DNA of 35,804 nt, taken from the NCBI GenBank assembly GCA_902761655.1, contig CACWLD010000012.1, forward strand, positions 1-35,804, in the 5' to 3' direction. Made by a program: the position numbers and the translations under genes. Origin of the DNA: an uncultured Bacteroidia bacterium. Lineage in GTDB: Bacteria; Bacteroidota; Bacteroidia; Bacteroidales; UBA932. This document shows, in pieces, positions 389-17,018 of the stretch (its first letter is position 1; every line of letters starts with the position of its first letter). The notes beneath the pieces are model-generated. The model worked only from the letters and a program-made list of their open reading frames with translations, ran no database searches and was not told the DNA's origin.

Positions 389-450
389 AACAAACAACGG
401 GCCATTTAAGTTAATATACTATATATCAAATATTTACGAAATGAAGAGAG

Positions 451-500
451 GTGTAATAACTGTAAAGGACTTTACACAAAGTGTAAATATGGGTTTACAC
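451..500. promoter_or_regulatory. Cluster of GTGTAAA/TTTACAC boxes upstream of the ABC ATPase
   Basis: A perfect inverted repeat TTTACAC-AAA-GTGTAAA lies at 471-487 and a further TTTACAC at 494-500. A partial GTGTAA is at 451-456 and TGTAAA at 461-466. Two more TTTACAC copies are in the tandem repeat at 311 and 360. The arrangement resembles operators for a dimeric repressor or response regulator controlling the ABC-transporter gene, whose promoter must lie in 301-553. The regulator is not identified. The rest of this 253-base gap is AT-rich with no gene. Confidence 0.45.
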
Positions 501-553
501 TTTGTCATTTCTGGAGAGTGTCGGTTGTGCCGCTTGTGTCGCTTCTAGAAAAA

Positions 554-1915: not shown

Positions 1916-1928
1916 CCAATAATGGCCC

Positions 1929-1959
1929 CAAAAATAGCCCCATTTTTTGGAAAATCAAA
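1929..1959 (-). promoter_or_regulatory. Bacteroidota promoter for the integrase
   Basis: On the minus strand a -33 TTTG (complement of 1956-1959) is followed after exactly 19 bases by the -7 box TATTTTTG (complement of 1929-1936). This is a full match to the phylum consensus TTTG-N19-TAnnTTTG. Transcription would begin around 1922, a few bases before the ATG at 1915, leaving a very short leader. Confidence 0.7.
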
Positions 1960-2050
1960 GCATTTAAGTGAAATAATTTGATAAGTAACAGATTGACTAA
2001 CTGATTAGTTGTGAAATAGAATGATAGAATATGTATAGTTAGGACATAAT

Positions 2051-2064
2051 CTCGTCCTCTCCGC
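2051..2064 (+). other. Probable tRNA-Ser 3'-end remnant, candidate attachment site
   Basis: The sequence CTCGT-CCTCTCC-G-C reads like the 3' part of a T-stem, the 3' acceptor strand (complement GGAGAGG), and the discriminator G73 of a serine tRNA. It is followed at once by a terminator. No 5' part of a tRNA precedes it: the upstream bases do not form a T-loop. Integrases of this class often insert at tRNA 3' ends and leave such a duplicated tail at the far border. This would mark the chromosome (right) to element (left) junction. It is only about 14 bases, so coincidence cannot be excluded. Confidence 0.45.
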
Positions 2065-2096
2065 AAAAAAGCCGATGCCGTCGCATCGGCTTTTTT
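2065..2096. terminator. Bidirectional rho-independent terminator
   Basis: A perfect 8-bp stem GCCGATGC/GCATCGGC (2071-2078 and 2083-2090) with loop CGTC is flanked by A6 on the left and T6 on the right. It can stop transcription from either side. It is likely the original terminator of the tRNA gene whose 3' tail seems to precede it. Confidence 0.88.
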
Positions 2097-2150
2097 GCTG
2101 TACTCCAGAAATCGCAACAAATGGGGATTACCGCCAGGAGGAAGCACTAG

Positions 2151-2158
2151 TAACTTTG
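2151..2158 (+). promoter_or_regulatory. Bacteroidota -7 box for the ECF S-component gene
   Basis: TAACTTTG fits the TAnnTTTG -7 consensus and lies 35 bases before the ATG at 2194. The -33 region has no clear TTTG, so the match rests on the -7 box alone. Confidence 0.45.
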
Positions 2159-2193
2159 TAGTCAGTAATAATAACCTGTAAATCAAAGTAACT

Positions 2194-2742
2194 ATGAAAC
2201 CTATTTACAAAATCGCCCTTCTGGCCGTAGCCTATCTTCTCACATATATTCTGGGTTCTTGTACCGGCATCATTCATCCGGGGTGCTACGCATATGTAGG
2301 GGCAATCCTTCCCCTGCTGACAGCCTTCATCTATCTTTTGACCTGCGCCTCTATACAGGGCTTCGGCGCGGCTACGGTCCTGAACGGATTCGTCTTTGTC
2401 ATATTACTGATTGCGGGCGAGGCGGATACCACGCTTGCCATCGGCTTTGCAATCCTGACGGCTCTCGCTGAAATAATCCGTTATTTCTGCAAGTATGATA
2501 CGCTGAAAGGCGTACGCTGGAGCTTCATCCCCTTTGCGTTCTCCTTCTTCGCATACACCGCCCACTGGTGGTCCGACACTGAAGGGTCGCTCGCTGCTGC
2601 CGTAGAGGAAATGCGTCCAGGATATGACCAGCTTATGGTTCCCGTCATCAACAACATCCCGGTTCTGGTTGTAGTGCTGGTCCTGACAATTCCCGTTGCC
2701 ATCCTGGCAATGCGCCTGGCTGAACGGTCACTGAAAAAGTAA
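2194..2742 (+). CDS. MptD-family putative ECF transporter S component
   Basis: 182 residues, mostly hydrophobic, with about five membrane segments. The wording GAILPLLTA near residue 37, LAEIIR in the middle, and a last helix ending in a basic tail (AERSLKK) match the MptD/Trep-Strep family of ECF substrate-binding membrane proteins. Length is normal for the family (about 180-200). Such S components bind a vitamin or other small molecule and work with an energising module (EcfA, EcfA', EcfT). No ECF ATPase or T component is adjacent, so it may share a module encoded elsewhere. The substrate is not predictable. It appears to be the first chromosomal gene beyond the element border. Recognition is by remembered family pattern, not by search. 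Confidence 0.65.
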   Translation: MKPIYKIALLAVAYLLTYILGSCTGIIHPGCYAYVGAILPLLTAFIYLLTCASIQGFGAATVLNGFVFVILLIAGEADTTLAIGFAILTALAEIIRYFCKYDTLKGVRWSFIPFAFSFFAYTAHWWSDTEGSLAAAVEEMRPGYDQLMVPVINNIPVLVVVLVLTIPVAILAMRLAERSLKK

Positions 2743-2808
2743 GCAGAAATTTGTCTATCTTTACACTGATGTTCCGGTGTAAGGATAAACCGGCAGTTTC
2801 TGAACCAA

Positions 2809-3966
2809 ATGACTATTAGACTGGAAAAACCTGAAGATTACCGTGAGGTAGAAAACTTGACCCGCGAGGCTTTTTGGAATGTATATCGTCCCGGTTGCAC
2901 GGAGCACTATGTGCTGCACTGCTACCGGGACAATCCTGATTTCATCCCCGAACTGGATTTTGTGATGGAGGAGGATGGCCGCATCATAGGCCACGTGATG
3001 TTCTCAAAGGCCCAACTGATCCTGAACGACGGCACCCGAAAACCTTCCTGGACCTTCGGCCCCATCAGCATCCATCCGGATTATAAACGGAAGGGGTATG
3101 GGCTGCGGATGCTCCAGTATGCGCTGGAGGAAGCCCGTAAAATGGGCGTAGGCTTCCTATGTATGGAAGGCAATATCGACTTTTACCGCAATGCAGGGTT
3201 CGGTCTTGCAAGCAAATTCAATATACATTATCACGACTTTCCCAAGGAGGAGGAAGTCCCGTTCTTCCTGGCCCAGGAACTGATTTCCGGCTGGCTTGTC
3301 GCCAACGGTATAGATGAAGCCACCTACTGTCCGCCCAAAGGTTATTTTGTCGCTGATGAGAACCCGGAAGCCTTTGAGGCATACGAAGCAACTTTCCCAA
3401 AGAAGGAGAAACTCCGTATTCCAGGGCAGCTTGGGTATGATGGCGTTATTATGGAATCCGGCAGGATTGTGCTCCGCCCCTGGCGGGAGGACGATGCTCC
3501 GGCTCTGTATAAATACGCTTCAGACCCGGAGGTGGGGCCTCGCGCCGGCTGGGAGCCACACAAATCCATTAAGGAAAGCCTTGAGATAATCCGCACGGTC
3601 TTCCACAATGACACTACTTGGGCTATTGAGCTCAAGGAGACCGGCGAGCCGCTTGGCGCGATGGGTTATCTGCCCGCTGAGGGCAGTCAACTGCCTTCCA
3701 GGAAAGGTGAGCCGCTTGTGGGTTACTGGGTAGGCAGACCATATTGGAACAGAGGCATTTGCACAGAGGCCTTGCAGTTGATGCTCGGCCATATAAGGGA
3801 AGCCACTGATATAAGGTCGCTGATTGGCAGCCACTTCATTGACAACCCTGCCAGCGGACGGCTTATGGAGAAGTGCGGATTTGTCCCCACCGGCGAGACT
3901 TGTATTGACCAAACCCTGGCCGGATCCGACAGCCCTATGAGGGTTCTTAGATTAGAAATCAAATAA
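2809..3966 (+). CDS. Tandem GNAT acetyltransferase fusion
   Basis: 385 residues with two complete GNAT acetyl-CoA-dependent acyltransferase domains. Domain 1 (residues 1 to about 205) carries the acetyl-CoA loop in GPISIHPDYKRKGYG and the EGNIDFYRNAGF segment seen in stand-alone YhbS-like GNATs. Domain 2 (about 215-385) is RimJ/RimL-like, with RIVLRPWREDDA at its start, YWNRGICTEAL for acetyl-CoA binding, and NPASGRLMEKCGF. Met215 precedes domain 2 and looks like its ancestral start, so the protein reads as an in-frame fusion of two once-separate genes. Substrates are unknown; RimL-like domains often act on protein N-termini or amino sugars. It is followed 12 bases later by a zinc-ribbon gene, probably co-transcribed. 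Confidence 0.88.
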   Translation: MTIRLEKPEDYREVENLTREAFWNVYRPGCTEHYVLHCYRDNPDFIPELDFVMEEDGRIIGHVMFSKAQLILNDGTRKPSWTFGPISIHPDYKRKGYGLRMLQYALEEARKMGVGFLCMEGNIDFYRNAGFGLASKFNIHYHDFPKEEEVPFFLAQELISGWLVANGIDEATYCPPKGYFVADENPEAFEAYEATFPKKEKLRIPGQLGYDGVIMESGRIVLRPWREDDAPALYKYASDPEVGPRAGWEPHKSIKESLEIIRTVFHNDTTWAIELKETGEPLGAMGYLPAEGSQLPSRKGEPLVGYWVGRPYWNRGICTEALQLMLGHIREATDIRSLIGSHFIDNPASGRLMEKCGFVPTGETCIDQTLAGSDSPMRVLRLEIK

Positions 3967-3978
3967 TTATAGATTGAT

Positions 3979-4251
3979 ATGGAAATGAAATTTTGCCAGA
4001 GCTGCGGGATGCCGCTCACAGAAGAAATCCTTGGAACCAATGCCGACGGAAGCAAGAATGAAGATTACTGCATCTACTGCTACAAGGACGGCAAGTTCCT
4101 TCAGGACTGCACAATGGATGAAATGATAGAGTTCTGCGCCCAGTTCGTGGACGAAGTGAACAAGAACCTGCCGCAGCCCATCACCAAAGAGGAGTACATC
4201 TCCCAGATGAAAACCTACTTCCCCCAACTGAAACGCTGGCGCCAGGAGTAA
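3979..4251 (+). CDS. Small zinc-ribbon protein
   Basis: 90 residues. Two CxxC pairs (CQSCG near residue 6 and CIYCY near residue 32) form a putative zinc ribbon, and the remainder is helical and acidic (TMDEMIEFCAQFVDEVNK). This is the wording of the Pfam putative zinc-ribbon family (Zn_ribbon_2), common as a free-standing protein in Bacteroidota and Firmicutes, often beside acetyltransferases or methyltransferases. Its biochemical role is not established. It lies 12 bases after the GNAT fusion on the same strand, so it likely shares that transcript. Confidence 0.85.
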   Translation: MEMKFCQSCGMPLTEEILGTNADGSKNEDYCIYCYKDGKFLQDCTMDEMIEFCAQFVDEVNKNLPQPITKEEYISQMKTYFPQLKRWRQE

Positions 4252-4269
4252 CTTTCCCCAAAATCTCAA

Positions 4270-4364
4270 AAGTGTGCAGGGCGGTCCATCCGTTGGACCG
4301 CCTTACACGTTTTACCCCTATTTTCGTGCAGGGTGGTCCATTGGATGGACCGCCCTGCACACTT
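4270..4364. repeat. REP-like palindrome pair (BIME-type) beside the RAYT gene
   Basis: Two GC-rich hairpins face each other. Hairpin A has a perfect 9-bp core stem (4280-4288 with 4294-4302) extended by an imperfect, bulged base. Hairpin B has a 15-bp stem with one G-U pair (4326-4340 with 4346-4360). In addition 4270-4291 and 4343-4364 are perfect inverted repeats of 22 bases, so the whole block can fold as one long stem. Bulged palindromes in inverted pairs next to a RAYT gene are the classic substrate of that transposase family. Either hairpin may also end transcription of the zinc-ribbon gene, though no T-run follows. Confidence 0.75.
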
Positions 4365-4451
4365 GCCTGTAAATTAAACGTTTAATTGCCTTCAAGGAGT
4401 AGTAATCAACGAATCATTATTCCATATTTGTTTCCTAAACTTAAACATACT

Positions 4452-5309
4452 ATGGATTACTATTTAGTTACTACCAGTCATCTTGAAAGCGCCACTTTAT
4501 TCCGGGAAAATGCCGACTTCATTGTTGGAATGAATGCCGTTCCCCTTATTGCCGCATACACAGGGGTTGTTATCGTTGCATTCATTTTGATGTCCAACCA
4601 CGTCCACTTCATTCTTTATTGTACCTACAGTCAGGCTTTGGATTTCATCAATGGCTACAAGAAACATTATTCTTTCTATCTGGCCAAGAAATATGGCATA
4701 AAGGAGACTCTCAGAAGAAATAGCGTCGACATCCAGAAGTTAGACCAATCCGGAGAATCTCTTGAGCGTGCCATAGCGTATGTCCAGATGAACCCCGTCG
4801 CGGCCAACATTTGCCTTAATCCGTTTGATTACCCTTGGGGTACAGGCAACTGTTATTTCAAAGTATCTACTTCTAAAGGAATCCCTGTCGACAATCTTTC
4901 CGCCCGCTCCCGCCACGCATTGTTTCACAGCCGAAAAGAGGTTCCAAGAGGTCTCCTTGTTGGGGAAAGTGGATTCATCCTTCCCGAATCATACATCCAA
5001 AAGGGCAGAGTCGAAGCCATTTTCCGCAGCCCTAACAGGATGCAGTATTTCCTCAACTCCTCTTCAAAAGCCAAAATCCGATTGGAATCCAAAGACTCAG
5101 AGACACCTTCCTTAAAGGATACAGTCGTTCTGCCACTGATGTTGGATCTGTGTCAGAAGATGTTTGGGAAAGGGTTGGTCAATGAATTGACTCCGGAACA
5201 GTTGACTGAACTATTGCGGCAGTTGCGCTACCGATGTTCTTCTAACATTAACCAATTAGCCCGCGTTACGGGATTGTCATATACACAGATAGCTAAACTG
5301 CTTGAATGA
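4452..5309 (+). CDS. REP-associated tyrosine transposase (RAYT, Y1_Tnp family)
   Basis: About 285 residues from the ATG at 4452; an in-frame TTG at 4386 would add 22 residues. It shows the HUH metal-binding motif MSNHVHF (His50, His52) and the RAYT hallmark AYVQMNPVAANI with DYPWG. Tyr110 in that block is the best candidate nucleophile. The C-terminal 60 residues look like a helix-turn-helix region (NQLARVTGLSYTQIAKLL), as in other Bacteroidales RAYTs. Members are single-copy domesticated relatives of IS200/IS605 transposases that bind and cleave REP hairpins as single strands. The REP-like block ends 87 bases upstream; no matching palindrome was seen on the downstream side. All key residues are present, so it is probably active. 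Confidence 0.87.
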   Translation: MDYYLVTTSHLESATLFRENADFIVGMNAVPLIAAYTGVVIVAFILMSNHVHFILYCTYSQALDFINGYKKHYSFYLAKKYGIKETLRRNSVDIQKLDQSGESLERAIAYVQMNPVAANICLNPFDYPWGTGNCYFKVSTSKGIPVDNLSARSRHALFHSRKEVPRGLLVGESGFILPESYIQKGRVEAIFRSPNRMQYFLNSSSKAKIRLESKDSETPSLKDTVVLPLMLDLCQKMFGKGLVNELTPEQLTELLRQLRYRCSSNINQLARVTGLSYTQIAKLLE

Positions 5310-6037: not shown

Positions 6038-8359
6038 CTACTTCAGTTCTTGGTACAACTCCGGATCAAACTCTTCAAGCGCGGTGACGCCGTGCAGATG
6101 GTTGATTGATATCCACGGAAGCCAGGTGCGATGCGCACCTATTCCGCGGATGGGATTCATACGCCAGTGCTCCTGCTGCCAGCCGGGGCCGGCCATATCG
6201 TAGGTCCGGCCTGGCAGCGCCAGCATAGCCTTGGTGCCGTGCAACAGCACGCGCGCCACGTCCAGTTCGTGCGCATCGCCGGTGTATTTGTATAGCTTGG
6301 CGTAGATGGGCACGGCCCAGTCCAGATACTGGTCAACGCCGCCCACGTCGTTGGAACCTATTATGTTGGCACCGATGACCGGGACGCCGGGCTTCCAGCC
6401 CAGCAAGTCCGGGTCGGCCCCTGCGGGCATCGGGATGTCCCATATCCATATCCAGGCCTCCGCGTAGTCTGCAGCGGCACGGGCGCGCTGAAGCCATTTT
6501 TCGTCCTGAGTATCTTCGTACAAAGTCATGAAAGCTTCGGCGCTAAGCATACCTGATTCCTTGTCGGCAACGCTGGGGGTGCCGGTTGCACCTTGATATA
6601 CTCCCTTGCTGCCATATTCTTTCCAGATGTATTCCGCGGCCTTGATGGCTGCTGCCTTGTAAGTGTTGTCTCCGGTGAAGTTAGCGAGTTTCACGAGGAA
6701 TGGGACGGGCGCATATGAGAGTGCGCCGGATTGGTCGGAAATGGCTCCGTCATCGCCCCACTCGGCGGGGAAGGAGCCGTCGGGACGCTGCAGCGGAAGC
6801 AGCCAGTCAGCAAAGCTCTTGCCCCATGCCAGCCACTGCGGATGCTGCACTCCGCGCTGTTTCTCGCGCTCTAGCATATCCATAAGACGCGCGAGGTCCT
6901 CAGGGATAGGACGAAGGCCCCAGCTGTTACCTCCGTGGATGTTGCCCACATGGCCGGTGCGGAGGTTCAGGCCCTCGCCTACAGGCGGATCAAGAGGGAC
7001 ATACTTCACCAGCGAATACATTATCTCTTCTGCCAGCTGGCTGAAGCGCGTGCCTCGAGGGCTCTGGTCGCGGTAAGCCTCCATCAGGAACTGCTCCGCA
7101 ATCTCCACGTGCTTGCCGCAGAAGCCCACTACCGCGTACTCCCAGATTTCCAGCTCTGCCGCCGTGGGATCAAGGTCGATTCCCAGCTGGCGGGCCCAGG
7201 CCTGCATCTTGGGGATGTCCGGATTGTAGTTGGAACGATTAGGGAACTGCCTGTTTGTCGGACGGAAAGATCCCGGCTTGCCCGACTTGGCATCTATCAC
7301 GAACGGTACTCCCGCACGGTCTTTATACTCTATTACCTGAGAGGCCAGATGGTCCAGCAGAGTGGTACGCATCTGCTCCAGGTCCACTTTCTCCACTTTC
7401 GGGTCCAGCATAGCCCAGGCCTGACGCCACGCGTCGCGCTCCACTCCCGGCATCTGGTCCGATGTCCCAAGCAGGAACGCCAGCCGGTACTCCTGCGTGA
7501 AACCGTCCTGCACAGGATGCAGGCGGATGCGCGTAATTGACTCCACCGGAGTATCGCTGGTCCTGAAAAATCCACCTGCGAATTCCCTGCAGGTACCAGG
7601 ATAAATGAACGATATGCCTACGCCATTGTCAGTGGCGGCCACCTCAAGGGTGCCGAATCCAAGACCAGGCTCTATCACGCAGTCGGTTGCCGCCGCCGTG
7701 GTTTCTTCCCAAGTGGTAGCTCCGTCCGGATTGCGGTCAAGAACAGCGAACCAGTCGTATGCATCTCCAGTACCGTCAACCACTGCTGCAAGCGGCGCAG
7801 CCAGATAGTCTTCCCTGAGGGAGAAGTATCCGGCATCATAGAATGCGCGGCCGCCCTTTGAAAAATCCGTAGTATGAGGATCGCCGAAGATGACGCCCGG
7901 GATGAAATACTTGCAGTCCTTCCACTGAGTCTGTGTCTCCAGCCCTGTGGCGGTGCAAAATCCAACGCCTTCCTGAGAGTCGCTTACAGTGACACTTCTG
8001 TCCAGGAGCAGAGTCTCCCCGTCTATTCTCCACAGGTCGTGGAAAGTGAAGACGCTGCCGCCGGCTTCAATCTCGGCAGTAGCATCGACCTTGCGCACAC
8101 TGGGTTTCACAGATGTGTAGGAAGCCTCGAACTCTGACAGCGTCTTTCCATCAGCACAAAGATATAGCTTGGCCGGAGCCAGCTGCTGCAGAATGTCGCC
8201 ATCGGCACGGGTTACCGTGATGCCATATGTCTTCTGGCCGGAACCGGTGAATCTGACCACCGAGCCGGAGTCGGTTTGCCCCAGGCGGACATCATAACTG
8301 CATCCCGCCAGCAGGAACAAGGCTGCAAGGCAGATACTTACGGATATTACTCTTTTCAT
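6038..8359 (-). CDS. Large lipoprotein with beta-rich N-terminus and alpha/alpha-toroid-like C-terminus (unassigned, glycosidase-like)
   Basis: 773 residues. A lipoprotein signal peptide ends in LLAGC (lipidated Cys20). Residues 20 to about 320 are rich in beta strand and aromatic residues. From about 330 to 770 the protein becomes a run of helical pairs with Trp/Gly/His-rich turns (GNIHGGNSWGL, PLQRPDGSFPAEWGDDG, KESGMLSAEAF, GPGWQQEHWRMNP), as in six-hairpin glycosidases and polysaccharide lyases. I do not recognise a named family. A surface or periplasmic carbohydrate-active role is inference. It starts 6 bases after the FMN-binding gene and is very likely translated from the same mRNA, an unusual pairing. 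Confidence 0.8.
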   Translation of the reverse strand: MKRVISVSICLAALFLLAGCSYDVRLGQTDSGSVVRFTGSGQKTYGITVTRADGDILQQLAPAKLYLCADGKTLSEFEASYTSVKPSVRKVDATAEIEAGGSVFTFHDLWRIDGETLLLDRSVTVSDSQEGVGFCTATGLETQTQWKDCKYFIPGVIFGDPHTTDFSKGGRAFYDAGYFSLREDYLAAPLAAVVDGTGDAYDWFAVLDRNPDGATTWEETTAAATDCVIEPGLGFGTLEVAATDNGVGISFIYPGTCREFAGGFFRTSDTPVESITRIRLHPVQDGFTQEYRLAFLLGTSDQMPGVERDAWRQAWAMLDPKVEKVDLEQMRTTLLDHLASQVIEYKDRAGVPFVIDAKSGKPGSFRPTNRQFPNRSNYNPDIPKMQAWARQLGIDLDPTAAELEIWEYAVVGFCGKHVEIAEQFLMEAYRDQSPRGTRFSQLAEEIMYSLVKYVPLDPPVGEGLNLRTGHVGNIHGGNSWGLRPIPEDLARLMDMLEREKQRGVQHPQWLAWGKSFADWLLPLQRPDGSFPAEWGDDGAISDQSGALSYAPVPFLVKLANFTGDNTYKAAAIKAAEYIWKEYGSKGVYQGATGTPSVADKESGMLSAEAFMTLYEDTQDEKWLQRARAAADYAEAWIWIWDIPMPAGADPDLLGWKPGVPVIGANIIGSNDVGGVDQYLDWAVPIYAKLYKYTGDAHELDVARVLLHGTKAMLALPGRTYDMAGPGWQQEHWRMNPIRGIGAHRTWLPWISINHLHGVTALEEFDPELYQELK

Positions 8360-8365
8360 CTTATG

Positions 8366-8758
8366 TTATTTCTGTATGCTCTTCAGGCCTGCCTTGATAT
8401 TCTCTTTCAAGGCCTCGCAGGACATTGTACATCCCGAAATTGCATCTACATCGGACTCCAGGGCCTCCTTGACGGTCATACCTTTAAATGCATCTAGAAT
8501 CTTGACGGCATTCTGGTAGAAAGAAGGGGTCTCTTCGCTGGGAAGGGCCTCAACGGACTGAATCTTGCCTCCAACAATGGTAATCTTAACCGGTGTTGCG
8601 GCGTGATGGCCCAGGACATCCTTGCACATTTCTGTGGTATCGATGACCTTTTTCTCATCAGCCTTCTTCTGGGCCGATGCCGGGAACACTGTAAAAGCAA
8701 CGGATGCCAGCGCAATAAGCGCCACCACCGCGATCAATATCTTAGAAGTCTTTTTCAT
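8366..8758 (-). CDS. Exported FMN-binding domain protein
   Basis: 130 residues: an N-terminal signal peptide (about residues 1-29, ending ASA) followed by one FMN-binding domain of the NqrC/RnfG type. The C-terminal motif DAISGCTMSC (residues 105-114) matches the flavinylation pattern DxxSGxT, in which ApbE links FMN covalently to a Thr, here Thr111. The residue before it is Cys instead of the usual Ala, and a second Cys follows at 114. Such small proteins carry electrons outside the inner membrane. No ApbE, Rnf or Nqr gene is nearby. It is the first gene of a two-gene unit with the large lipoprotein and has a plausible promoter. Confidence 0.85.
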   Translation of the reverse strand: MKKTSKILIAVVALIALASVAFTVFPASAQKKADEKKVIDTTEMCKDVLGHHAATPVKITIVGGKIQSVEALPSEETPSFYQNAVKILDAFKGMTVKEALESDVDAISGCTMSCEALKENIKAGLKSIQK

Positions 8759-8777
8759 AAACCTATATTTCTGTTTG

Positions 8778-8785
8778 CAAAGTTA
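8778..8785 (-). promoter_or_regulatory. -7 box for the FMN-binding/lipoprotein unit
   Basis: The minus strand reads TAACTTTG (complement of CAAAGTTA), a match to TAnnTTTG 19 bases upstream of the ATG at 8758. A TTTA, one base from the -33 TTTG consensus, lies 19 bases further upstream. Confidence 0.55.
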
Positions 8786-8811
8786 CTTATTCTGCGAGCA
8801 ACTGTAAATCC

Positions 8812-9600
8812 CTATTTATAAGGAAGTGTGACTTTGAACGACAGCCCCGCCGCAGGGGTGAAGCCGCTGCGCACAGGAGACGGGGTGCTGGCCAGGAACG
8901 GCTCAAGCCGAACGTCCAGGCCAGCCCCATAACGCTGCGCCCGGAGGTCCTGGATGTACATATTCTTGACCTTGGCAATGCGTACCGCATCAACAATACT
9001 CCAAATATTCAGTCCTACATTGGCCAGTGCACTTATAACGGAAGCAGTAGAAATATCATAGTCCGCATCAGTCTTACTGCTGCCTGGAACACTGGTATAA
9101 TGGACGTCTATGCCAGCGCTTGTTATGCTTGTAAGAATAACGTTTCCAACTAAAAAGCCTGCAGCACGCCACCACTCTCCTTCTATTGCCTGGCCAAGTC
9201 CGGGGAACACATAAGAAGCAAAGCCAAGCCAACCAGGGCTGTATTTGTCGTCATATTGACGAATATACATCTTTGGGTTGTAAATATGCTTTAACTGCTT
9301 GTATCTCAGGCCCTCAAGGACCGGACCGTCTGAATAAGCCATATTCACCGGGACACCGTCAAAAATGTCCTTTTCTCCGTTCTGGTATCTTATCATAACT
9401 ACCTGAGCCGTGCTGATCGAATAGGATGGACCGTCAAGATTGCTGAATCTTTTATACTTTATCATCAGCGGAGAAACCTCTTCTACCTTTGCCTGAATGT
9501 CCTCACCGCTACGGGTGGTGATGATATCCTGTGCGCGGGAAACCATCACGCTTCCAAGCAGCGCCACAGCTATGAATATCAATCTTTTCATCGTTCTCAT
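8812..9600 (-). CDS. Exported DUF5683-like protein
   Basis: 262 residues starting MRTMKRL; Met4 is an equally good start. A signal peptide ends VSRAQ. The first half has a beta-rich segment with ITTRSGEDIQAKV and YSISTAQVVMIRY wording, which recurs in Bacteroidales exported proteins. The second half contains WLGFASYVFPGLGQAIEGEWWRA, typical of the DUF5683 membrane-associated family, followed by a hydrophobic stretch and a C-terminal strand ending KVTLPYK. The function is unknown. It stands alone between the thrE-ended operon and the FMN unit, with its own -7 box. Confidence 0.78.
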   Translation of the reverse strand: MRTMKRLIFIAVALLGSVMVSRAQDIITTRSGEDIQAKVEEVSPLMIKYKRFSNLDGPSYSISTAQVVMIRYQNGEKDIFDGVPVNMAYSDGPVLEGLRYKQLKHIYNPKMYIRQYDDKYSPGWLGFASYVFPGLGQAIEGEWWRAAGFLVGNVILTSITSAGIDVHYTSVPGSSKTDADYDISTASVISALANVGLNIWSIVDAVRIAKVKNMYIQDLRAQRYGAGLDVRLEPFLASTPSPVRSGFTPAAGLSFKVTLPYK

Positions 9601-9679: not shown

Positions 9680-10912
9680 TCAGTGCGCGGATCTGAGCTT
9701 GCGGGTGAGGAGGTTGGCGCTGAGGACTATGCCCAGGACAATTGCCAGGGTGATCTTGACGGCGGTGAAACCGGCGGCAAGGGCGGAGTCCATCTGAGTG
9801 GAAACCACGAAGTAGGAACTCCAGAAGACGCCGGCGCCTGGAATCAACGGGAATATTCCACAGATGAGGAAGACGGTGCTGGGGCACTTGAAGCGGTGCG
9901 CGGCGGCCAGGGACAGGAGCGCCACCAATGTGGCGGCGAAGAATGTCCCGCCCGCCGGGCCCAGACCCAGATACCTGGTGAACACCAGGTAGGTAAGCCA
10001 TCCGGCCATACCAACGACTCCGCATTGGAGATAGAATTTGCGCGGAACGCCGAAAAGCACTGCAAAGGAGGCCGTGCCTATGAACGATGCGGCCAACTGA
10101 ATGGGAAGCATTGCCGTCACTGGATCAGTGATAGTCCCCTTAAGATGGATCATCCCTCCTTCAATGGCACTCTGGGCTATGAAGGCAAGGCACACCCCCA
10201 CGGCAATGCACAGGAACACCATCATAGCATCCAGCAGGCGCGTGATACCTGCCAGATAATCTTCTCCGGCGATATCCCTTAGACCATTTGTGAATGCCAC
10301 TCCCGGAATGAGCGGGATAAGCGTTCCAACCATCATATTTCCAAGGTTCTGTCCGAAACCAAAGTGGTTGAAAAGGATGCAAAGCGCAGTCCCGAGCGCC
10401 CCTGCAAAAATGTTGCTTAGCGCCTTGGAAAGCGAGGGAACGCACACCAGGACCAGGAACAGATACACAAAGGTGCCCGCCACCAACGCTGCCGCGCAGT
10501 CAAGCAGGCTGCCGCCGAAGATGGCGCAGAATGCGCCACTTCCCAGCGCCGCGCCTGCGAACTGCTCCCACAGCGGTTTCTCCGGCATCCGCCGTATCTC
10601 CTCCACCTTCTTCTCTGCCTCATCCAGCGTATATTTTCCTGCGGAAACATCGCGCGAGAACTGGTTCACTGCCACCACCTTGTCCAGGCGGGCCCCCTTG
10701 ATGGGGATGAACTTGACGTTGGCATAGGCCTTTCCTGTCGTGAAAATACCGTTGCTCAAGACGAAGAAGTTCTCGTTCTGCTCGCCAAAGTGGGTGGCGA
10801 TCCTCTCCATAGTATCCTCGACGCGGGATATCTCCGCGCCGTTCTCAAGCAGGATGTGCCCGGCTTCGGAAGCCAGCGAAAGTATCCTTGCAGAAGTTTC
10901 TTGGCTGTTCAT
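9680..10912 (-). CDS. ThrE-family threonine/serine exporter-like membrane protein
   Basis: 410 residues. The N-terminal half (about 1-250) is the ThrE/DUF1212 domain, with GAEISRVEDTM at its start and the membrane segment LIPLIPGVAFTNGLRDI. The C-terminal half is the second ThrE domain with CGIFPLIPGAGVF. About ten membrane segments are expected. The family exports threonine and serine in Corynebacterium; in Bacteroidota both domains are often fused as here. It is the last gene of a seven-gene run, 3 bases after the previous stop. Because the operon uses a serine-derived amino acid, it may move serine, cysteate or a related compound; this is inference. Confidence 0.85.
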   Translation of the reverse strand: MNSQETSARILSLASEAGHILLENGAEISRVEDTMERIATHFGEQNENFFVLSNGIFTTGKAYANVKFIPIKGARLDKVVAVNQFSRDVSAGKYTLDEAEKKVEEIRRMPEKPLWEQFAGAALGSGAFCAIFGGSLLDCAAALVAGTFVYLFLVLVCVPSLSKALSNIFAGALGTALCILFNHFGFGQNLGNMMVGTLIPLIPGVAFTNGLRDIAGEDYLAGITRLLDAMMVFLCIAVGVCLAFIAQSAIEGGMIHLKGTITDPVTAMLPIQLAASFIGTASFAVLFGVPRKFYLQCGVVGMAGWLTYLVFTRYLGLGPAGGTFFAATLVALLSLAAAHRFKCPSTVFLICGIFPLIPGAGVFWSSYFVVSTQMDSALAAGFTAVKITLAIVLGIVLSANLLTRKLRSAH

Positions 10913-10915
10913 AGT

Positions 10916-11206
10916 TTATTTTTTGCGTCCTCCCCTTTTATCTACCCATATCCACAGCAGATACATCAGCGCGCCCCATACCAGGAACAATAATACATAA
11001 ACCCAGAAAGGAAGGGTAGCGGTGTATGTATCCCTGTTGACATATTTTTCAAAATTGGGGATATCGGCATAATAATAGGCCCCGGCCCCAAAATCGAGGT
11101 CGTCCTGTAGGCCTATACCATTAGCCATTATATAAATGGCCGTGGCAAGGACTGCTATGCCCACAACGGCAAAAGCCACCCTTGCCACAGTCTTTTTCTT
11201 AGCCAT
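10916..11206 (-). CDS. Small two-TM membrane protein of unknown function
   Basis: 96 residues: a Lys-rich N-terminus, a first membrane helix (about 8-28), an acidic and Tyr-rich external loop of about 40 residues, a second helix (about 65-88) and a basic tail (RGGRKK). No family is recognised. Its ATG directly abuts the YeiH-family stop with no gap, and ThrE follows 3 bases later, so it is translationally embedded between two transporters and may be an accessory subunit of one of them. Confidence 0.75.
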   Translation of the reverse strand: MAKKKTVARVAFAVVGIAVLATAIYIMANGIGLQDDLDFGAGAYYYADIPNFEKYVNRDTYTATLPFWVYVLLFLVWGALMYLLWIWVDKRGGRKK

Positions 11207-12544
11207 TTAGTTCAGAACAGGGATTGGGAATACCTTTCCTGAAAGCAGGAACCATACGGCAAACAGAGTGAGGGCAATGTTGAACAACTGTCCCACTACA
11301 TACAGCCACAGAACCTTTCCGCCCTGCATCTGCTTAACGATCTCCTTGAAGTTGGTATCCAGTCCAATGCTTACGAAAGCCAGGACGAAAGCCCAGTTCT
11401 TATACTGGTCCAGCACCTTGTTGATAGCGCTCACCTGATCCGCACCTGCAAGAGGCTGGATGATGAAGGAAGCGATGAGAGATGCAACAAAGAAACCGAT
11501 GATGAACTTGGGGAAGCGGGTCCAAATCTCGCTTGCGCCAACCTTCTGGGTTCCGTTCTTGTCTACCTTGGTAGCGAAGAACAGTGCCACGAAGAATGCG
11601 ATGAAACCGATGAGGATGTTCTGGATCATCTTCACGAGCACGGCGGCCTTCTCCGCCTCTCCGCCAAGGGCGGAACCGGCAACGGCAACTGCTCCGGTAC
11701 TGTCAACAGTACCTCCAATGAGGGCGCCTCCCATAATAGGAGACATCTGGGCCCAGCGGATGAGCATAGGCTCGAACACCATCATAAGGACGGTGAAGAT
11801 GATGGAGATGGAAACTACCATTGTAAGGTCTGTCTTCTTGCAGTTTGAAGCTGCGCCGGTGGCGATGGCTGCTGATGTACCGCAGACTGATGTAGCGGCG
11901 GCCATTGTGATTACCAGCGGCTTGTTGTCAAGTTTCAGGACCTTGGTTCCGAACCACCACATAAAGATGATGACGATAGGTGTTACTATCCAGGCGATTC
12001 CAAGTCCGTAAAGGCCGAACTTTGCAATGTTGGAGAACAGCACGGAGAATCCCATAATTACCAGACCGGTCTTGATGTAGAACTCTGTCTTTACGGCCGG
12101 CTTGAGCCAGTCAGGAACTCCAACCGTGTTGGAAATGAGAAGTCCCACTATCAAGGCCCAGAAAGCCCACTCCAGATAACGGTTGAGAGTGTACTCTGCG
12201 CTGATAAGGCGCACGATGATTGCCAGTACGAACAGTCCCAGGAATGCAGGGATGTACTTCTTGACATTGCCGCCCATAAGCTTGACGCCAATGGTGAACA
12301 GGACGCCAAGGACGACCACTGTCCGTAAAAGCTTCCACCAGAAAGCTGCGGTTGCGAGCTGGCTTCCAAGTGACGGCAGACTTGCCGCTTTAGCTTCTCC
12401 CAGCCCGAACGTGCTGAAACTGAGTGCGGAGAAGTTGAAAGCACCTGTAAGGACTGCTACACAGCCGATAAGGATGACAACGAATCCAATCCATACGGCC
12501 AGCCAGTCTTCTGTGCTGAAGAGTTTAGATTTTTGTTTGCTCAT
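11207..12544 (-). CDS. YeiH-family (UPF0324) putative sulfate/sulfite exporter
   Basis: About 445 residues with 10-11 membrane helices. The ATG at 12544 (MSKQKSK) is preferred over an upstream one that would overlap the SDR stop. Family motifs are clear: FYIKTGLVIMGFSVLF, AAATSVCGTSAAIAT, GGALIGGTVDSTGAVAVAG and a C-terminal FVLAFVSIGLDTNF. Relatives in this family (SuyZ, TauZ) sit beside sulfonate-degradation genes, including cysteate degradation in Paracoccus, and are proposed to export sulfate. Here it lies in a cysteate-synthesis-type operon, where sulfite handling or uptake is conceivable. The direction and substrate are inference. Confidence 0.85.
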   Translation of the reverse strand: MSKQKSKLFSTEDWLAVWIGFVVILIGCVAVLTGAFNFSALSFSTFGLGEAKAASLPSLGSQLATAAFWWKLLRTVVVLGVLFTIGVKLMGGNVKKYIPAFLGLFVLAIIVRLISAEYTLNRYLEWAFWALIVGLLISNTVGVPDWLKPAVKTEFYIKTGLVIMGFSVLFSNIAKFGLYGLGIAWIVTPIVIIFMWWFGTKVLKLDNKPLVITMAAATSVCGTSAAIATGAASNCKKTDLTMVVSISIIFTVLMMVFEPMLIRWAQMSPIMGGALIGGTVDSTGAVAVAGSALGGEAEKAAVLVKMIQNILIGFIAFFVALFFATKVDKNGTQKVGASEIWTRFPKFIIGFFVASLIASFIIQPLAGADQVSAINKVLDQYKNWAFVLAFVSIGLDTNFKEIVKQMQGGKVLWLYVVGQLFNIALTLFAVWFLLSGKVFPIPVLN

Positions 12545-12546
12545 AT

Positions 12547-13329
12547 CTACATAGATTTGATTTTCATTGCAAGCCGGGCGCACAGTCCCGGGAAGAAACG
12601 CTTGATATAGACCATTATGAGTTCCTTGCGGCCTACGAGAACCTCGCGGCGGCCTTTGTCAAAGGCTTTCGCGATCTTCCGGGCAGCGTCCTCAGGACTG
12701 AGGCCGCCCGCCTGCCCGGGATCCATCTTCCCGTGCTGCGCGCCGCCCTTGTCCAGGGCGTAGAACGATATGTTGGTCCTGACCCTGCCGGGGCACACCA
12801 GCGTCACGCGGATGCCGCGCGGGGCGTACTCAGCCCGCAGGGTTTCAAAGAAACCGTAAAGGGCGTGCTTTGACGAACTGTACGCGCAGCGCAGCGGGAA
12901 GCCGAAGCGGCCCGCTATGGAGGTGGTGGCGGCTATATGCCCGCCGCCGGCCTCCAGCATCCGCGGCAGGATGGCCTTTGCCATAGCCACGGGCGCGAAG
13001 TAGTTCACTTCCATTATGCGGCGCACCATCTCCATAGAGGTGTCCTCTACTGTGGTGCGCTGGCTGATTCCTGCGTTGCAGTACATCAGGTCTATGCCTC
13101 CGAACGCGTCCCAGGCCTGCTGCACAAGCCCGGGGACGCCGTCAGCGTCCAGCAGGTCGAAAGGGAGGGCCTTGGCGCCGGCCGCCCCAAATCCAAGGCA
13201 CTTTTCCGCCACGGCCTCCAGTTTCTCCTTTTCATTGGAAGTAACCACCACATAGGCTCCACGCTTTGCGTAGAGATATGCGCAGGCCTCCCCAATGCCT
13301 GACGATGCTCCGGTAATCCAAATTTTCAT
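12547..13329 (-). CDS. SDR oxidoreductase, probable 3-ketocapnine reductase
   Basis: 260 residues, a classical short-chain dehydrogenase. The NAD(P) motif TGASSGIG (6-13) starts right at the N-terminus, followed by CNAG (84-87), Asn109 and the catalytic Ser137, Tyr150 and Lys154 (YSSSK). The extended C-terminus (KELIMVYIKRFFPGLCARLAMKIK) is amphipathic, as in DHRS7-like and 3-ketosphinganine reductases that sit at membranes. In the operon it follows the cysteate synthase with no gap and the acyltransferase just upstream, so reduction of 3-ketocapnine to capnine is the natural role. A 3-ketosphinganine reductase would be the alternative. Confidence 0.85.
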   Translation of the reverse strand: MKIWITGASSGIGEACAYLYAKRGAYVVVTSNEKEKLEAVAEKCLGFGAAGAKALPFDLLDADGVPGLVQQAWDAFGGIDLMYCNAGISQRTTVEDTSMEMVRRIMEVNYFAPVAMAKAILPRMLEAGGGHIAATTSIAGRFGFPLRCAYSSSKHALYGFFETLRAEYAPRGIRVTLVCPGRVRTNISFYALDKGGAQHGKMDPGQAGGLSPEDAARKIAKAFDKGRREVLVGRKELIMVYIKRFFPGLCARLAMKIKSM

Positions 13330-14613
13330 CTAGAACAGATTCTTTACTTTCCTGACAACCTGCTCCGCATCCAGGTCCGGTTCCAATACCAGGTCCGGCT
13401 GCTTGAGCACGAAGCCCTTGCTTATTGCACCCAGCGTTCCGCCGCCGGTGCAGTTGAGCATAATGTATTCGTCTTTTTTGACCTTGCCTTCCTTGACAGC
13501 CTTGTCCAGGGCGGTAACTGCTACGCAGGCAGCCGGCAACAGGTCATACCCTTCAAGGTTACGGAACTGAAGAAGCCAGAATACTATGTCGTTGTTATCG
13601 GCAAGGAAAACGTCTCCGCCGCTCTCCTTGAGAGTGTCGAAAAGGCCTCCGGCTATGCCGTAAGGGGGTTTCCTGTTGGAGAGCACCTTGGCAAGGATGA
13701 CCTCCGCCTGGCGGCGGCCTTCCTCGGGCTCAAGGTCCACCAGCTTGCGTGATTCCTGCTTCCAGGAATCGTACATAAGGGAGAACGGGGCGTTCTGCGC
13801 AACGTAGACGCGCATATGGTTCTCGCCGAAGCGTCCGTCAGCCGCCAGCCTCTGCGCGTTTTCCCAGGCCGCTATGGCTCCGGTTCCGGAGCCTACCGCC
13901 TGGAAATAAGCGTCAGGTATGCGCCCCACTTTCTCAGCAAAGCTGAGGATGGTGGTGCCCATACCGTCGCGCCTCGCCACGTTCTTTGCCCCTCCCTCAA
14001 GGAAGAAGGCAGGATCCGTGGCCAGCTTTTCGCCAAGGGCGATGGCATCGTAATAATCACACCCGTGAGGGACCGCGATAAGCTTGACGCATTTGTCAAG
14101 CGGCTTGCGGAACCACAGGTCGTGGCAGCTGTCCAGGGGGACGCATATAACTACCGGGATGCCGTTGTCCGAGCACACCTGGGCGAAAGCCCTTGCGGTG
14201 TTTCCGGCGGACTGCACCACCAGCACGCGCTTCTCCCTCTTATCCATACGGGCAAGGACGCTGTAGGCCTCGGTCTCCTTGAAGGAGCAAGTCTTCATCT
14301 TTGCCCCTATCCTGGGGTTCCAGCCGGAGAACGTTATGTACAGGTTCTCCAGGTCCAGATACCTTGCAAGTCCCCTGGACTTATAAGTAACGGGGGCGCA
14401 GGAATGCTTGAGGGTGCGCTTGATGGGCATCCAGTTGGCATATCGGTATATTCCGTCAAGTTCCTTGCGGACGGTGAATTCACGGTTGTCGTACACGGCC
14501 CTGACCAGCGACGGTTCAGGACTCTGGGGGTCCGACATAGTCCAGCCTTCATCCTCAAGGAGACGTCCGGTGGCAACATTTATCAGACCGTATTTTGTGG
14601 GTTCGAATCTCAT
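13330..14613 (-). CDS. Cysteate synthase (threonine-synthase-like PLP enzyme)
   Basis: 427 residues with the fold-type II PLP pattern of threonine synthase. The probable PLP lysine is Lys112 (CSFKETEAY), with SAGNTARAF (135-143) for substrate and cofactor contact and a phosphate loop GSGTGA (241-246). The wording departs from biosynthetic threonine synthase (usual SFKDRG) and fits the cysteate-synthase branch known from Methanosarcina, which makes L-cysteate from O-phosphoserine and sulfite. An alpha-oxoamine synthase, SDR and sulfur-oxyanion-type transporter beside it support that reading, while no other threonine genes are near. It begins 2 bases after the previous stop. Family assignment is from memory of the motifs; a TIGR03844-type model would settle it. 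Confidence 0.8.
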   Translation of the reverse strand: MRFEPTKYGLINVATGRLLEDEGWTMSDPQSPEPSLVRAVYDNREFTVRKELDGIYRYANWMPIKRTLKHSCAPVTYKSRGLARYLDLENLYITFSGWNPRIGAKMKTCSFKETEAYSVLARMDKREKRVLVVQSAGNTARAFAQVCSDNGIPVVICVPLDSCHDLWFRKPLDKCVKLIAVPHGCDYYDAIALGEKLATDPAFFLEGGAKNVARRDGMGTTILSFAEKVGRIPDAYFQAVGSGTGAIAAWENAQRLAADGRFGENHMRVYVAQNAPFSLMYDSWKQESRKLVDLEPEEGRRQAEVILAKVLSNRKPPYGIAGGLFDTLKESGGDVFLADNNDIVFWLLQFRNLEGYDLLPAACVAVTALDKAVKEGKVKKDEYIMLNCTGGGTLGAISKGFVLKQPDLVLEPDLDAEQVVRKVKNLF

Positions 14614-14615
14614 AG

Positions 14616-15881
14616 TTATTTAATGATTGCCATATCGGGGATTTCTTTGTCATATTCTCCGCGGGCGAGGCGCTCCTTGATGTCGCGGAACGCGTCAAGC
14701 GTGCGCTCAACATCTTCCATACTGTGCGCGGCGGTAGGGATGATCCTGAATATGAGCATTCCAGGAGGAATGACGGGATAGGTTACAATGGAGCAGAAGA
14801 TATGGTAGTTCTCCCTGAGGTCCACTGCAATGTTGGAAGCCTGGTTGATGCCGCAGGCCAGATGAACGGGGGTCACGCAGGCCTCTGCGGGGCCAATTTC
14901 GTAACCCAGTTCGCGGAAGCCTTCCTGCAGGCGGCGCGTAACTTTCCAGAGTTGCGCGCGGCGCTGGTCGCCTTCCGGGCTGTTGATTATCTCAAGGCGC
15001 TTGATGCAGCCTTCCACAATTGGCATAGGCAGAGCCTTGGCGTACATCTGGGAGCGCATATTGTAACGCAGATAGGTGATTATTTCCTTCTTGGAAGCGA
15101 CGAAGCCTCCAATTGTGGCCATTGACTTGGCGTAAGCGCCAATGTAGAGGTCAACGCCGTCCATTACGCCAAAGTGCTCGGAGGTTCCCCTTCCGTGAGG
15201 GCCCATAACGCCAAAACCGTGGGCATCGTCAATCATAAAGCGGAATTTGTACTTCTCCTTGAGTGCCACGATCTGGTCCAGGATTCCAAGGGCGCCAGTC
15301 ATTCCGAACACTCCCTCCGTGATCACCAGCACGCCGCCGCCGTTCTCGTCCGCAACCTTGCAGGCGCGGGCCAGGACTTTCTCGCAGTCGGCTATGTTGT
15401 TGTGGCGGAATTTGTACTTTTCTCCAATGTGGAGGCGGATTCCGTCAAGGAGGCAGGCGTGGCACTCAGCATCGTAGACGATGACGTCGTGACGGCCTAC
15501 AAGGGCGTCAATGGTGGAAACTATTCCCTGGTAGCCAAAGTTGTACAGGAAGGCGGCCTCCTTGCACTCGAACTCTGCGAGCATACGCTCGAACTTCTCG
15601 TGAAGGGAGGTGTGGCCTGTGAGCATACGGCTTCCCATAGGGTAAGCCATTCCCCAGCGGGCCGCACCTTCCGCGTCCGCCTTGCGGATCTCCGGATGGT
15701 TGGCCAGGCCAAGGTAGTTGTTAAGGCTCCAGCACAATACTTCCTGGCCGTTGAACCTCATATGCGGGCCAAGTTCTCCTTCCAGTTTAGGGAATGCGAA
15801 ATAACCTTCGGCTTTCTCCCGGTACTGGCCGATAGGACCGCCGGTAGATGCCATAATTTTCTCGAAAATGTCTTTATACAT
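14616..15881 (-). CDS. Alpha-oxoamine synthase, probable cysteate acyltransferase (SulA/CFAT-like)
   Basis: 421 residues, fold-type I PLP enzyme of the serine palmitoyltransferase / glycine C-acetyltransferase family. PLP lysine Lys252 (AYAKSMAT), Asp219-His221 (DDAHGFG) and ring-stacking His141 (CHACLLDG) are present. The N-terminus YFAFPKLEGELGPHMRFNG and the segment NMRSQMYAKALPM match the Bacteroidota branch used for sulfonolipids, where cysteate is condensed with an acyl donor to 3-ketocapnine. Automated pipelines often label it 2-amino-3-ketobutyrate CoA ligase or SPT. The adjacent cysteate synthase makes cysteate the favoured amino-acid substrate over serine. It lies 6 bases after the VOC gene. 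Enzyme class is firm; the exact substrate is inferred. Confidence 0.82.
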   Translation of the reverse strand: MYKDIFEKIMASTGGPIGQYREKAEGYFAFPKLEGELGPHMRFNGQEVLCWSLNNYLGLANHPEIRKADAEGAARWGMAYPMGSRMLTGHTSLHEKFERMLAEFECKEAAFLYNFGYQGIVSTIDALVGRHDVIVYDAECHACLLDGIRLHIGEKYKFRHNNIADCEKVLARACKVADENGGGVLVITEGVFGMTGALGILDQIVALKEKYKFRFMIDDAHGFGVMGPHGRGTSEHFGVMDGVDLYIGAYAKSMATIGGFVASKKEIITYLRYNMRSQMYAKALPMPIVEGCIKRLEIINSPEGDQRRAQLWKVTRRLQEGFRELGYEIGPAEACVTPVHLACGINQASNIAVDLRENYHIFCSIVTYPVIPPGMLIFRIIPTAAHSMEDVERTLDAFRDIKERLARGEYDKEIPDMAIIK

Positions 15882-15887
15882 ATTGCT

Positions 15888-16961
15888 TTATTTGATTTTT
15901 TCTCTTGATACAAGGCCCATAAGGCGGAACAGGAACTTTGGTAGTTCTTTCTGTGGATCCCGCTTCTTAAGGTCTATGAACCATCCCAGTTTCTTGACCA
16001 CCGGGACCTTTTCCGTCTCCACGAACTCTATGAGCGTGCCGTCAGGATCCTCTATGTAGGTGAAGCGGCCGGCGGCGTCTCCCATATTGAACTTTTGCCC
16101 GTCGGGGCAGCTGTCAACGGTGAAAGGATGGCCCAGGGCGGCGCAATGCGCGCCAAGGGCGTCCGTGCCGCAGACATCGAAGCAGATCTGGATGAAGCCT
16201 GGGTCACCCCACTGACGCCCCTCGAAAATCTTGCGGGGGGTGTGGTCCAGCGCCTGGACCAGTTCTATGGTATTCTTTCCCATCAGGCCCGCGAAGGCGC
16301 CCTTTCCCTGGCCTGACGGGGCCAGGAGCACGCGCCTGTAGCGCTCCGTGCAGCCGGGCATTATGTTCCAGTCATCAAAGATGCCTATGGTGTCATAAAG
16401 GAGGGTGTCATAGCCAAGGACGTCCTTGTAGAAAAGGATTGAGGCGTCCATATCAGAAACGCCCACCACGGCGCCAAAGATACCGCCGTTCATCCTGTTC
16501 TGCTCTATGTAAACCTCCTGGTTTTCCACAACCTGGAAACAATTGCCGTAAAGGTCCTTGACATAGAAGCAGGGGGTGCCGTCCGGAAGTGAGGAGATAT
16601 CCCCTACTCCGTCCCACTTTTCCCTTATAATGCTATGGAAGGCCTCTACGTTACGGCTTTTGATCTTTGCGGCGAATATGCCCAGGTCTCCCACCGATAT
16701 ATCGAAATCAGCGCTGACCGGCTTCCTTTGGGAGTACTGCCAAATCTCAAGTCCGCCGCCGCCCTGAAGGTTTACGGCTATGCAAGCGTGACGATTCTGA
16801 GGCTGGCCACCCGTGTATGGAAGCATCCTTTCAGCAACGGTATCATCTTCAAGAATCTTGATGTCCATTCCGAACATCTCAATGAACCAGTTCCAGGATT
16901 TGCGGAAATTGACGGTTCCCACACCAACCTGCTGGATGCCTGTTATAGAGAAATCTGCCAT
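15888..16961 (-). CDS. Double-VOC-domain protein heading the sulfonolipid-type operon
   Basis: 357 residues with two vicinal-oxygen-chelate modules (about 5-150 and 158-310) and a basic C-terminal tail (LVSREKIK). The overall layout resembles two-domain dioxygenases such as 4-hydroxyphenylpyruvate dioxygenase, but the metal ligands differ. Module 1 has Gln11 where His is usual, Glu72 and Gln143. Module 2 has Gly163 at the first ligand position and Glu in LIEFVE near its end. It may be non-catalytic, use an altered metal site, or act on a lipid intermediate. It is first in the operon, 6 bases before the acyltransferase, which argues for a role in the same pathway. The function is unknown. Confidence 0.8.
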   Translation of the reverse strand: MADFSITGIQQVGVGTVNFRKSWNWFIEMFGMDIKILEDDTVAERMLPYTGGQPQNRHACIAVNLQGGGGLEIWQYSQRKPVSADFDISVGDLGIFAAKIKSRNVEAFHSIIREKWDGVGDISSLPDGTPCFYVKDLYGNCFQVVENQEVYIEQNRMNGGIFGAVVGVSDMDASILFYKDVLGYDTLLYDTIGIFDDWNIMPGCTERYRRVLLAPSGQGKGAFAGLMGKNTIELVQALDHTPRKIFEGRQWGDPGFIQICFDVCGTDALGAHCAALGHPFTVDSCPDGQKFNMGDAAGRFTYIEDPDGTLIEFVETEKVPVVKKLGWFIDLKKRDPQKELPKFLFRLMGLVSREKIK

Positions 16962-16983: not shown

Positions 16984-17018
16984 CAAAGATAGCAATGATT
17001 TTTGTATCTTGCGACAAA
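16984..17018 (-). promoter_or_regulatory. Promoter of the sulfonolipid-type operon
   Basis: On the minus strand TATCTTTG (complement of 16984-16991) matches the -7 box, 22 bases before the ATG at 16961. A TTTG (complement of 17015-17018) lies 23 bases upstream, slightly longer than the usual 19-21. The 72-base gap must also hold the divergent promoter for the S9 peptidase, whose best box is TATCTTGC at 17005-17012, so the two overlap. Confidence 0.55.

Follow-up and report, generated by a model that had tools for sequence, protein, structure and literature searches.

What does a protein of the vicinal oxygen chelate (VOC) superfamily do in an operon that appears to make sulfonolipids? The question is raised by a 35,804-base stretch of DNA (the window), which is one entire contig of an uncultured Bacteroidia bacterium, related to Bacteroidales of the rumen, with a genome of 2.0 Mb (93.7% complete). 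As a first-pass annotation had described, seven minus-strand open reading frames (ORFs), read from position 16961 to 9680, follow each other with gaps of 6, 2, 0, 2, 0, and 3 bases. They encode the VOC protein, a candidate set of three enzymes for capnine (the sulfonolipid base), a YeiH-family membrane protein, a small membrane protein, and a ThrE-type exporter. Our best explanation, which from sequence comparison we hold with slightly better than even confidence, is a capnine operon in which YeiH would handle sulfite and the VOC protein genuinely takes part in the pathway, together with the short-chain dehydrogenase/reductase (SDR) of the operon, here called SDR type 1. We regard the VOC protein as a component because it co-occurs with the acyltransferase of the pathway, adjoins pathway genes, and is distributed nearly complementarily to a different reductase, SDR2.

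The proposal of the first-pass annotation that the core trio is a capnine-type set is supported by a curated model, solved structures, and a diagnostic residue. The fold-II pyridoxal phosphate (PLP) enzyme scored 425.3 bits in the proposed search with the cysteate synthase model TIGR03844 (cut-off 324.9) and 60.5 bits with the best threonine synthase model; on these scores, threonine synthase was rejected. Archaeal-type cysteate synthase has been reported in Alistipes and Odoribacter (PMC10191378), so this part is already known. Among solved structures, the acyltransferase matched 7U7H with 547.5 bits and 28EH, named cysteate-C-fatty acyltransferase, with 544.0 bits, versus 210.9 bits for the serine palmitoyltransferase 3A2B. 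7U7H is SulA of Alistipes, which is distinguished from Spt by Lys281, an alanine in Spt (PMC9304779). The window enzyme has a lysine at the matching residue 282 and not the alanine, and the SulA-type lysine is present in all 109 loci with an acyltransferase match of at least 44% identity, the window's included. When compared by scores, neither enzyme showed the kinship with threonine synthase, serine palmitoyltransferase or KBL that had been named as a refutation. The SDR is a classical SDR by PF00106, closest in sequence, among proteins of solved structure, to 11-beta-hydroxysteroid dehydrogenases; the 25 NCBIfam matches listed, of 219, included no 3-ketocapnine reductase model. By homology, the synthase would join O-phosphoserine and sulfite, the acyltransferase would condense cysteate with an acyl group on acyl carrier protein (ACP) to 3-ketocapnine, and the SDR would reduce this to capnine. 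The core of the operon appears to be the capnine pathway, and we infer that the organism produces capnine.

The distribution of the VOC gene was analyzed in a genus sample (121 genomes) and a phylum sample (296 genomes from 140 genera), both including the window's genome. Within the genus, 30 genomes carry VOC and 90 the acyltransferase (matches of at least 65% identity among the matches listed), and all 30 belong to the 90 (p = 5e-5). Across the phylum, VOC was detected in 41 genomes from 22 genera and the acyltransferase in 108 genomes from 53 genera. Again, all 41 VOC genomes carry the acyltransferase (p = 3e-21; by genus, p = 2e-11), which ties VOC to this enzyme far beyond the species.

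We also compared public VOC loci, namely those of the best 80 of 541 confirmed relatives, a set biased to close kin. Most of these are Bacteroidales assembled from rumen and gut metagenomes; the closest relative, from a yak-rumen record, is 96% identical, and one at 70% identity is labelled Candidatus Cryptobacteroides. An SDR is present in 71 of these loci and the acyltransferase (cysteate fatty-acyl transferase, CFAT) in 52. Genes on the same strand within 350 bases were counted as neighbours. By this measure, CFAT or SDR adjoins VOC in 71 public loci, which answers the neighbourhood comparison suggested earlier. In the genus, 29 of the 30 VOC loci show the same, and the remaining one ends 30 bases past VOC; in the phylum, 18 of 41 loci were examined and 6 show it. 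The most frequent patterns in the public loci were VOC-CFAT-SDR (23) and VOC-SDR (20), followed by VOC-CFAT-SDR-CysS-YeiH-TM2 (6), CFAT-PLP2-SDR-VOC (5), VOC-CFAT-PLP2-SDR (4), and the seven-gene order of the window (2, L166 and L167). Eight other patterns account for 11 loci together, and VOC stands alone in 9; some patterns are cut by contig ends. The divergent lineages L308 and L309 have the order SDR-CFAT-VOC. Our own gene caller was crude: among 20 loci, it yielded no CFAT for 4 and no YeiH for 3. Where it missed SDR2 beside CFAT (L135 and L144), search-match coordinates were used instead. On the strength of these neighbourhoods, the operon was rejected as a chance run of genes. Of the earlier view of the seven genes as one set, the core and the linkage of VOC and YeiH held up, while the complete seven-gene order turned out to be restricted to a lineage.

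SDR type 1 (at least 39% identity) was found in all 30 VOC genomes of the genus sample; four matches of 35-37% were left out of this count, being SDR2 by location. SDR2 occurs in 68 of the 121 genomes, in 66 of them on the acyltransferase contig and no more than 273 bases (median 36) from that gene, and has no match in the window's genome. Of the 90 genomes with the acyltransferase, 30 have VOC and 60 lack it; SDR2 was found in 10 of the former versus 57 of the latter (p = 7e-10). One or the other, SDR2 or VOC with SDR type 1, is encoded in 87 of the 90, and neither in 3. In the 10 genomes where VOC directly adjoins CFAT, SDR2 is always absent. The tree built from the 90 acyltransferases, which follows one gene and not the species, shows 15 changes for VOC and 11 for SDR2. 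We lean towards the view that VOC and SDR type 1 largely stand in for SDR2 and would form an alternative module for the step from 3-ketocapnine to capnine. In relatives, the acyltransferase and SDR2 lie between a gyrase-B-type gene and a gene for an HD-domain membrane protein (L131:5109-7233), beyond which trigger factor and ClpP were recognized by sight.

The VOC protein itself has the paired beta-alpha-beta-beta-beta modules, forming barrels, of its superfamily. A single glyoxalase Pfam match lies in its second half; the glyoxalase I model TIGR00068 gave 19.8 bits, well short of its cut-off of 120, and identity to the full-length structural matches (ranks 1-9 among the matches listed) is at most 14%. 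Q11, E72, Q-or-H258, and E312 are conserved among its relatives and look like ligand positions. We read the protein as a candidate metal-dependent proton-transfer enzyme, perhaps a C2 epimerase. It would act with SDR type 1 at the 3-ketocapnine stage, where we conjecture that it most likely removes and returns the acidic C2 proton of the amino-ketone with the help of a metal; such an exchange could keep or set the C2 configuration for the reductase. A more specific idea is that of a two-protein module in which VOC uses a metal to epimerize 3-ketocapnine at C2 or to proofread its stereochemistry; this idea is tentative and in our estimation has a good deal less than an even chance of being correct. 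If true, VOC would be the first enzyme of its superfamily in the synthesis of sphingoid-type bases, exchanged back and forth with an ordinary reductase and spread over several lineages of the phylum that are only distantly related.

Several observations weigh against these assignments. VOC is lacking in 67 of the 108 CFAT genomes of the phylum sample, and therefore the acyltransferase route can exist without it. Neither CFAT nor SDR adjoins VOC in 12 of the 18 phylum loci examined; in one of these (L305), just one 250-aa gene intervenes. VOC with SDR type 1 coexists with SDR2 in 10 genus genomes, and SDR type 1 occurs without VOC in two further ones, one of them G108. The pairing counts cover the genus sample, and the acyltransferase counts in the genus may miss short fragments. 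The co-occurrence p-values ignore kinship; after correction for it on the acyltransferase tree, the exchange of VOC and SDR2 fell short of significance, with five independent supported pairs left, of which on average 3.3 went in the expected direction, 0.0 against it, and 1.7 were neutral (median p = 0.25). The metal site is read from conservation and from ligand patterns, Gln, Glu, His, and Glu being the metal ligands of glyoxalase I; residue 258 is Gln in the window protein and His in distant kin. The SDR scored 210.5 bits with its nearest curated NCBIfam model, just below the cut-off of 215. An earlier screen of SDR candidates found just 3 of 12 and 3 of 7 to be active (PMC11211663). In G020, the other genome with SDR type 1 and no VOC match, an SDR type 1 stretch (C172:5-652) contains a stop, as if the SDR decays after VOC loss.

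YeiH was assigned by PF03601 (168.7 bits, cut-off 24.5), while the subfamily model TIGR00698 gave 87 bits, below its cut-off of 232.6. Close YeiH proteins (at least 70% identity) are encoded in 70 of the 121 genus genomes, and 68 of these also have the acyltransferase (p = 6e-12), which extends the linkage beyond the species. YeiH probably transports sulfite, inward or outward; cysteate synthase uses sulfite as its substrate. Perhaps with the small membrane protein as partner, it would carry sulfite across the inner membrane, supplying the synthase or venting an excess. YeiH was seen in 18 of the public loci and the small protein in 17; in loci outside the cluster, the two adjoin each other only some of the time. 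For this 96-aa protein, neither Pfam nor NCBIfam gave a match. The window's genome, at 93.7% completeness, has no match to PF01507 (PAPS reductase type); 18 of the 121 genus genomes have one. An anticorrelation of YeiH with sulfate assimilation was hinted at by the first 61 genomes and was not upheld in all 121; two of nine CFAT genomes with PAPS_reduct matches above 140 bits also carry a close YeiH.

The first-pass annotation had included ThrE among the pathway genes, which the distribution does not bear out. Its domains are clear (ThrE 221.6 and ThrE_2 125.1 bits; the equivalog NF047720 gave 84.8 bits versus a cut-off of 550), and it occurs in 39 of the 121 genus genomes. The acyltransferase is present in 26 of these 39 versus 64 of the 82 others (p = 0.19). 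Only its recurrence in two cluster types speaks for a role in the pathway: ThrE is collinear in four public VOC loci (L166-L167; L230 and L233).

Other explanations were considered against this evidence. VOC and SDR type 1 might be a tailoring module acting on capnine or the N-acylated lipid and yielding a second sulfonolipid species. The coexistence of two SDRs in 10 of the 30 VOC genomes and the separation of VOC from CFAT in 20 of the 30 would suit this; however, 20 of the 30 have no SDR2, including all 10 with CFAT-linked VOC, which points to replacement of a reductase. One of the two systems is present in 87 of 90 CFAT genomes, and we consider tailoring unlikely. Somewhat less likely still is a repair or detoxification enzyme outside the route, clearing by-products of reactive amino-ketones such as epimers, dimers or aldehydes. 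Glyoxalase I is among the VOC relatives, and 67 CFAT genomes of the phylum sample lack VOC, but a route enzyme is better suited by the invariable pairing with one SDR type in the genus and by the position of VOC, which is flanked on one or both sides by biosynthetic genes in changing arrangements. That VOC is a chance neighbour we take to be very improbable: the 12 phylum loci in which it has no pathway neighbour are outweighed by the acyltransferase in every VOC genome of both samples, a co-occurrence that contradicts chance, and by 14 patterns besides VOC alone, some of them cut by contig ends, that hold VOC with pathway genes.

Two further alternatives concern the other genes. YeiH, the small membrane protein, and ThrE could export the products of the operon or cysteate instead of sulfite, as the naming of the ThrE family as threonine/serine exporters and its collinearity in two cluster types might indicate. 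This seems improbable to us, since yeiH is the main sulfite-resistance gene in Salmonella, where the protein protects against sulfite (PMC12880088), SuyZ of Paracoccus is argued to extrude sulfite during cysteate breakdown (PMC11582611), and ThrE is not associated with CFAT. Use of serine by the acyltransferase, with ordinary sphingoid bases as products, can hardly be expected. The enzyme belongs to the same superfamily, and NCBIfam models for serine palmitoyltransferase, KBL, and BioF match it below their cut-offs, but the SulA-type lysine and the scores (547 versus 211 bits) led us to reject serine palmitoyltransferase, and a cysteate synthase lies in the same operon.

Like the systems called CapA-CapB-CapC, Cys-CFAT-KCR or SulA in Capnocytophaga, Ornithobacterium, Chryseobacterium, and Alistipes, the window encodes a cysteate synthase, an acyltransferase with the SulA lysine, and an SDR. 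CapA, CapB, and CapC were reportedly the subject of a 2022 paper in Biochemistry. Unlike those systems, the window unites all genes in one operon, has an archaeal-type synthase, adds VOC, YeiH, and the small membrane protein, and contains the SDR type that is paired with VOC; the validated KCR reductases are not clustered with cfat or Cys (PMC11211663). The VOC protein resembles glyoxalase I, methylmalonyl-CoA epimerase, and PcpA in its two-barrel fold and in having Gln, Glu, His-or-Gln, and Glu at ligand-like positions, and differs from them by its genomic tie to sulfonolipid genes. YeiH shares PF03601 with the YeiH and SuyZ putative sulfate (sulfite) exporters, and again an enzyme encoded nearby uses sulfite, but here the operon is biosynthetic and not one of degradation or stress, and a small membrane partner is often present. 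In line with the first-pass annotation, the listings and passages searched in the PMC literature, which mostly excludes subscription papers, connected neither VOC nor YeiH proteins with lipids of the capnine type, and the VOC companion enzyme is apparently undescribed in this pathway. PMC8319176, which mentions both sulfonolipid and glyoxalase, was set aside: the match is a list entry in a study of another, roseobacter lipid.

Sulfonolipids of gut and environmental Bacteroidota have been linked to inflammation, gliding, and choanoflagellate development, and reductase assays gave two product peaks, which the authors took for epimers (PMC11211663). VOC might bear on these two peaks. The sulfonolipid pathway is still incomplete, and VOC, so far seen only alongside the cysteate acyltransferase and tracking the reductase step, is a concrete gene to test; it could also mark part of the sulfonolipid producers. 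With YeiH inside the operon of a genome without a PF01507 match, the source and control of sulfite become testable as well.

The positions of the features are collected in Table 1. The family matches of the products are PALP/TIGR03844, Aminotran_1_2, adh_short, Cons_hypoth698 (YeiH), ThrE with ThrE_2, and glyoxalase. For YeiH, the ATG at 12544 was taken as start; the first possible start, a GTG at 12583, would overlap the SDR gene. The Bacteroidota -7 element was matched by its consensus, TAnnTTTG.

Table 1. Features of the operon and its upstream region in the window.
Feature	Position	Strand	Remark
VOC-superfamily protein, 357 aa, two barrels	15888..16961	(-)	operon gene 1; candidate metal-dependent isomerase partnering SDR
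Cysteate fatty-acyl(-ACP) transferase, CFAT / SulA / CapB type	14616..15881	(-)	predicted PLP lysine 252; SulA-type lysine 282
Archaeal-type cysteate synthase (O-phosphoserine + sulfite -> cysteate)	13330..14613	(-)	TIGR03844
SDR type 1, candidate 3-ketocapnine reductase	12547..13329	(-)	found wherever VOC occurs in the genus sample
YeiH-family (PF03601) membrane protein, candidate sulfite transporter	11207..12544	(-)	Pfam match
96-aa protein, two hydrophobic stretches (judged by sight)	10916..11206	(-)	often adjoins YeiH
ThrE-type exporter (ThrE + ThrE_2 domains), lineage-specific operon member	9680..10912	(-)	Pfam matches
TATCTTTG, match to Bacteroidota -7 element	16984..16991	(-)	upstream of VOC start; consensus match only

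Variants of the core genes were seen in other loci. A different fold-II PLP enzyme lies between acyltransferase and SDR in L231 (12344-13564) and L237 (7711-8931). It scored 153-184 bits as threonine-synthase-like (cut-off 303) and 117-120 bits with TIGR03844 (cut-off 324.9), and is a candidate for a further kind of cysteate synthase. The same slot is filled in L180, L229, L230, L233, L234, L236, L238, L240, L241, and L242 (22-23% matches). In L305:5472-8852, L306:7571-10897, and L307:2226-5576, a protein of 1,108-1,126 aa adjoining or near VOC has a C-terminal acyltransferase part with the SulA lysine; by sight, its N-terminal part resembles an acyl-AMP ligase and an acyl carrier protein.

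A second run of cysteate synthase, SDR, YeiH, TM2, and ThrE, 83-93% identical, lies on another contig of the same genome (L003, contig C53, 5,028 bases, positions 3-4945). C53 begins two bases ahead of the synthase ATG, and the run probably belongs to a co-assembled sister strain, broken at the very conserved acyltransferase. Four genus genomes (G004, G040, G086, and G101; assemblies 55-89% complete) have a cysteate synthase without a close acyltransferase among the matches listed. Missing or cut data possibly account for this; for G101, a further acyltransferase match (E = 4e-48) was present outside the matches listed.

After ThrE, the window continues with three minus-strand genes (6038-9600) for a 773-aa protein without a Pfam match, an FMN_bind protein, and a 262-aa protein, and L166 and L167 have these three behind the operon in an unchanged order. 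Elsewhere in the window, a patatin-like phospholipase is fused to an Omp85-type barrel (29060-31489), and a tyrosine-type phage integrase gene lies close to the contig end (554-1915).
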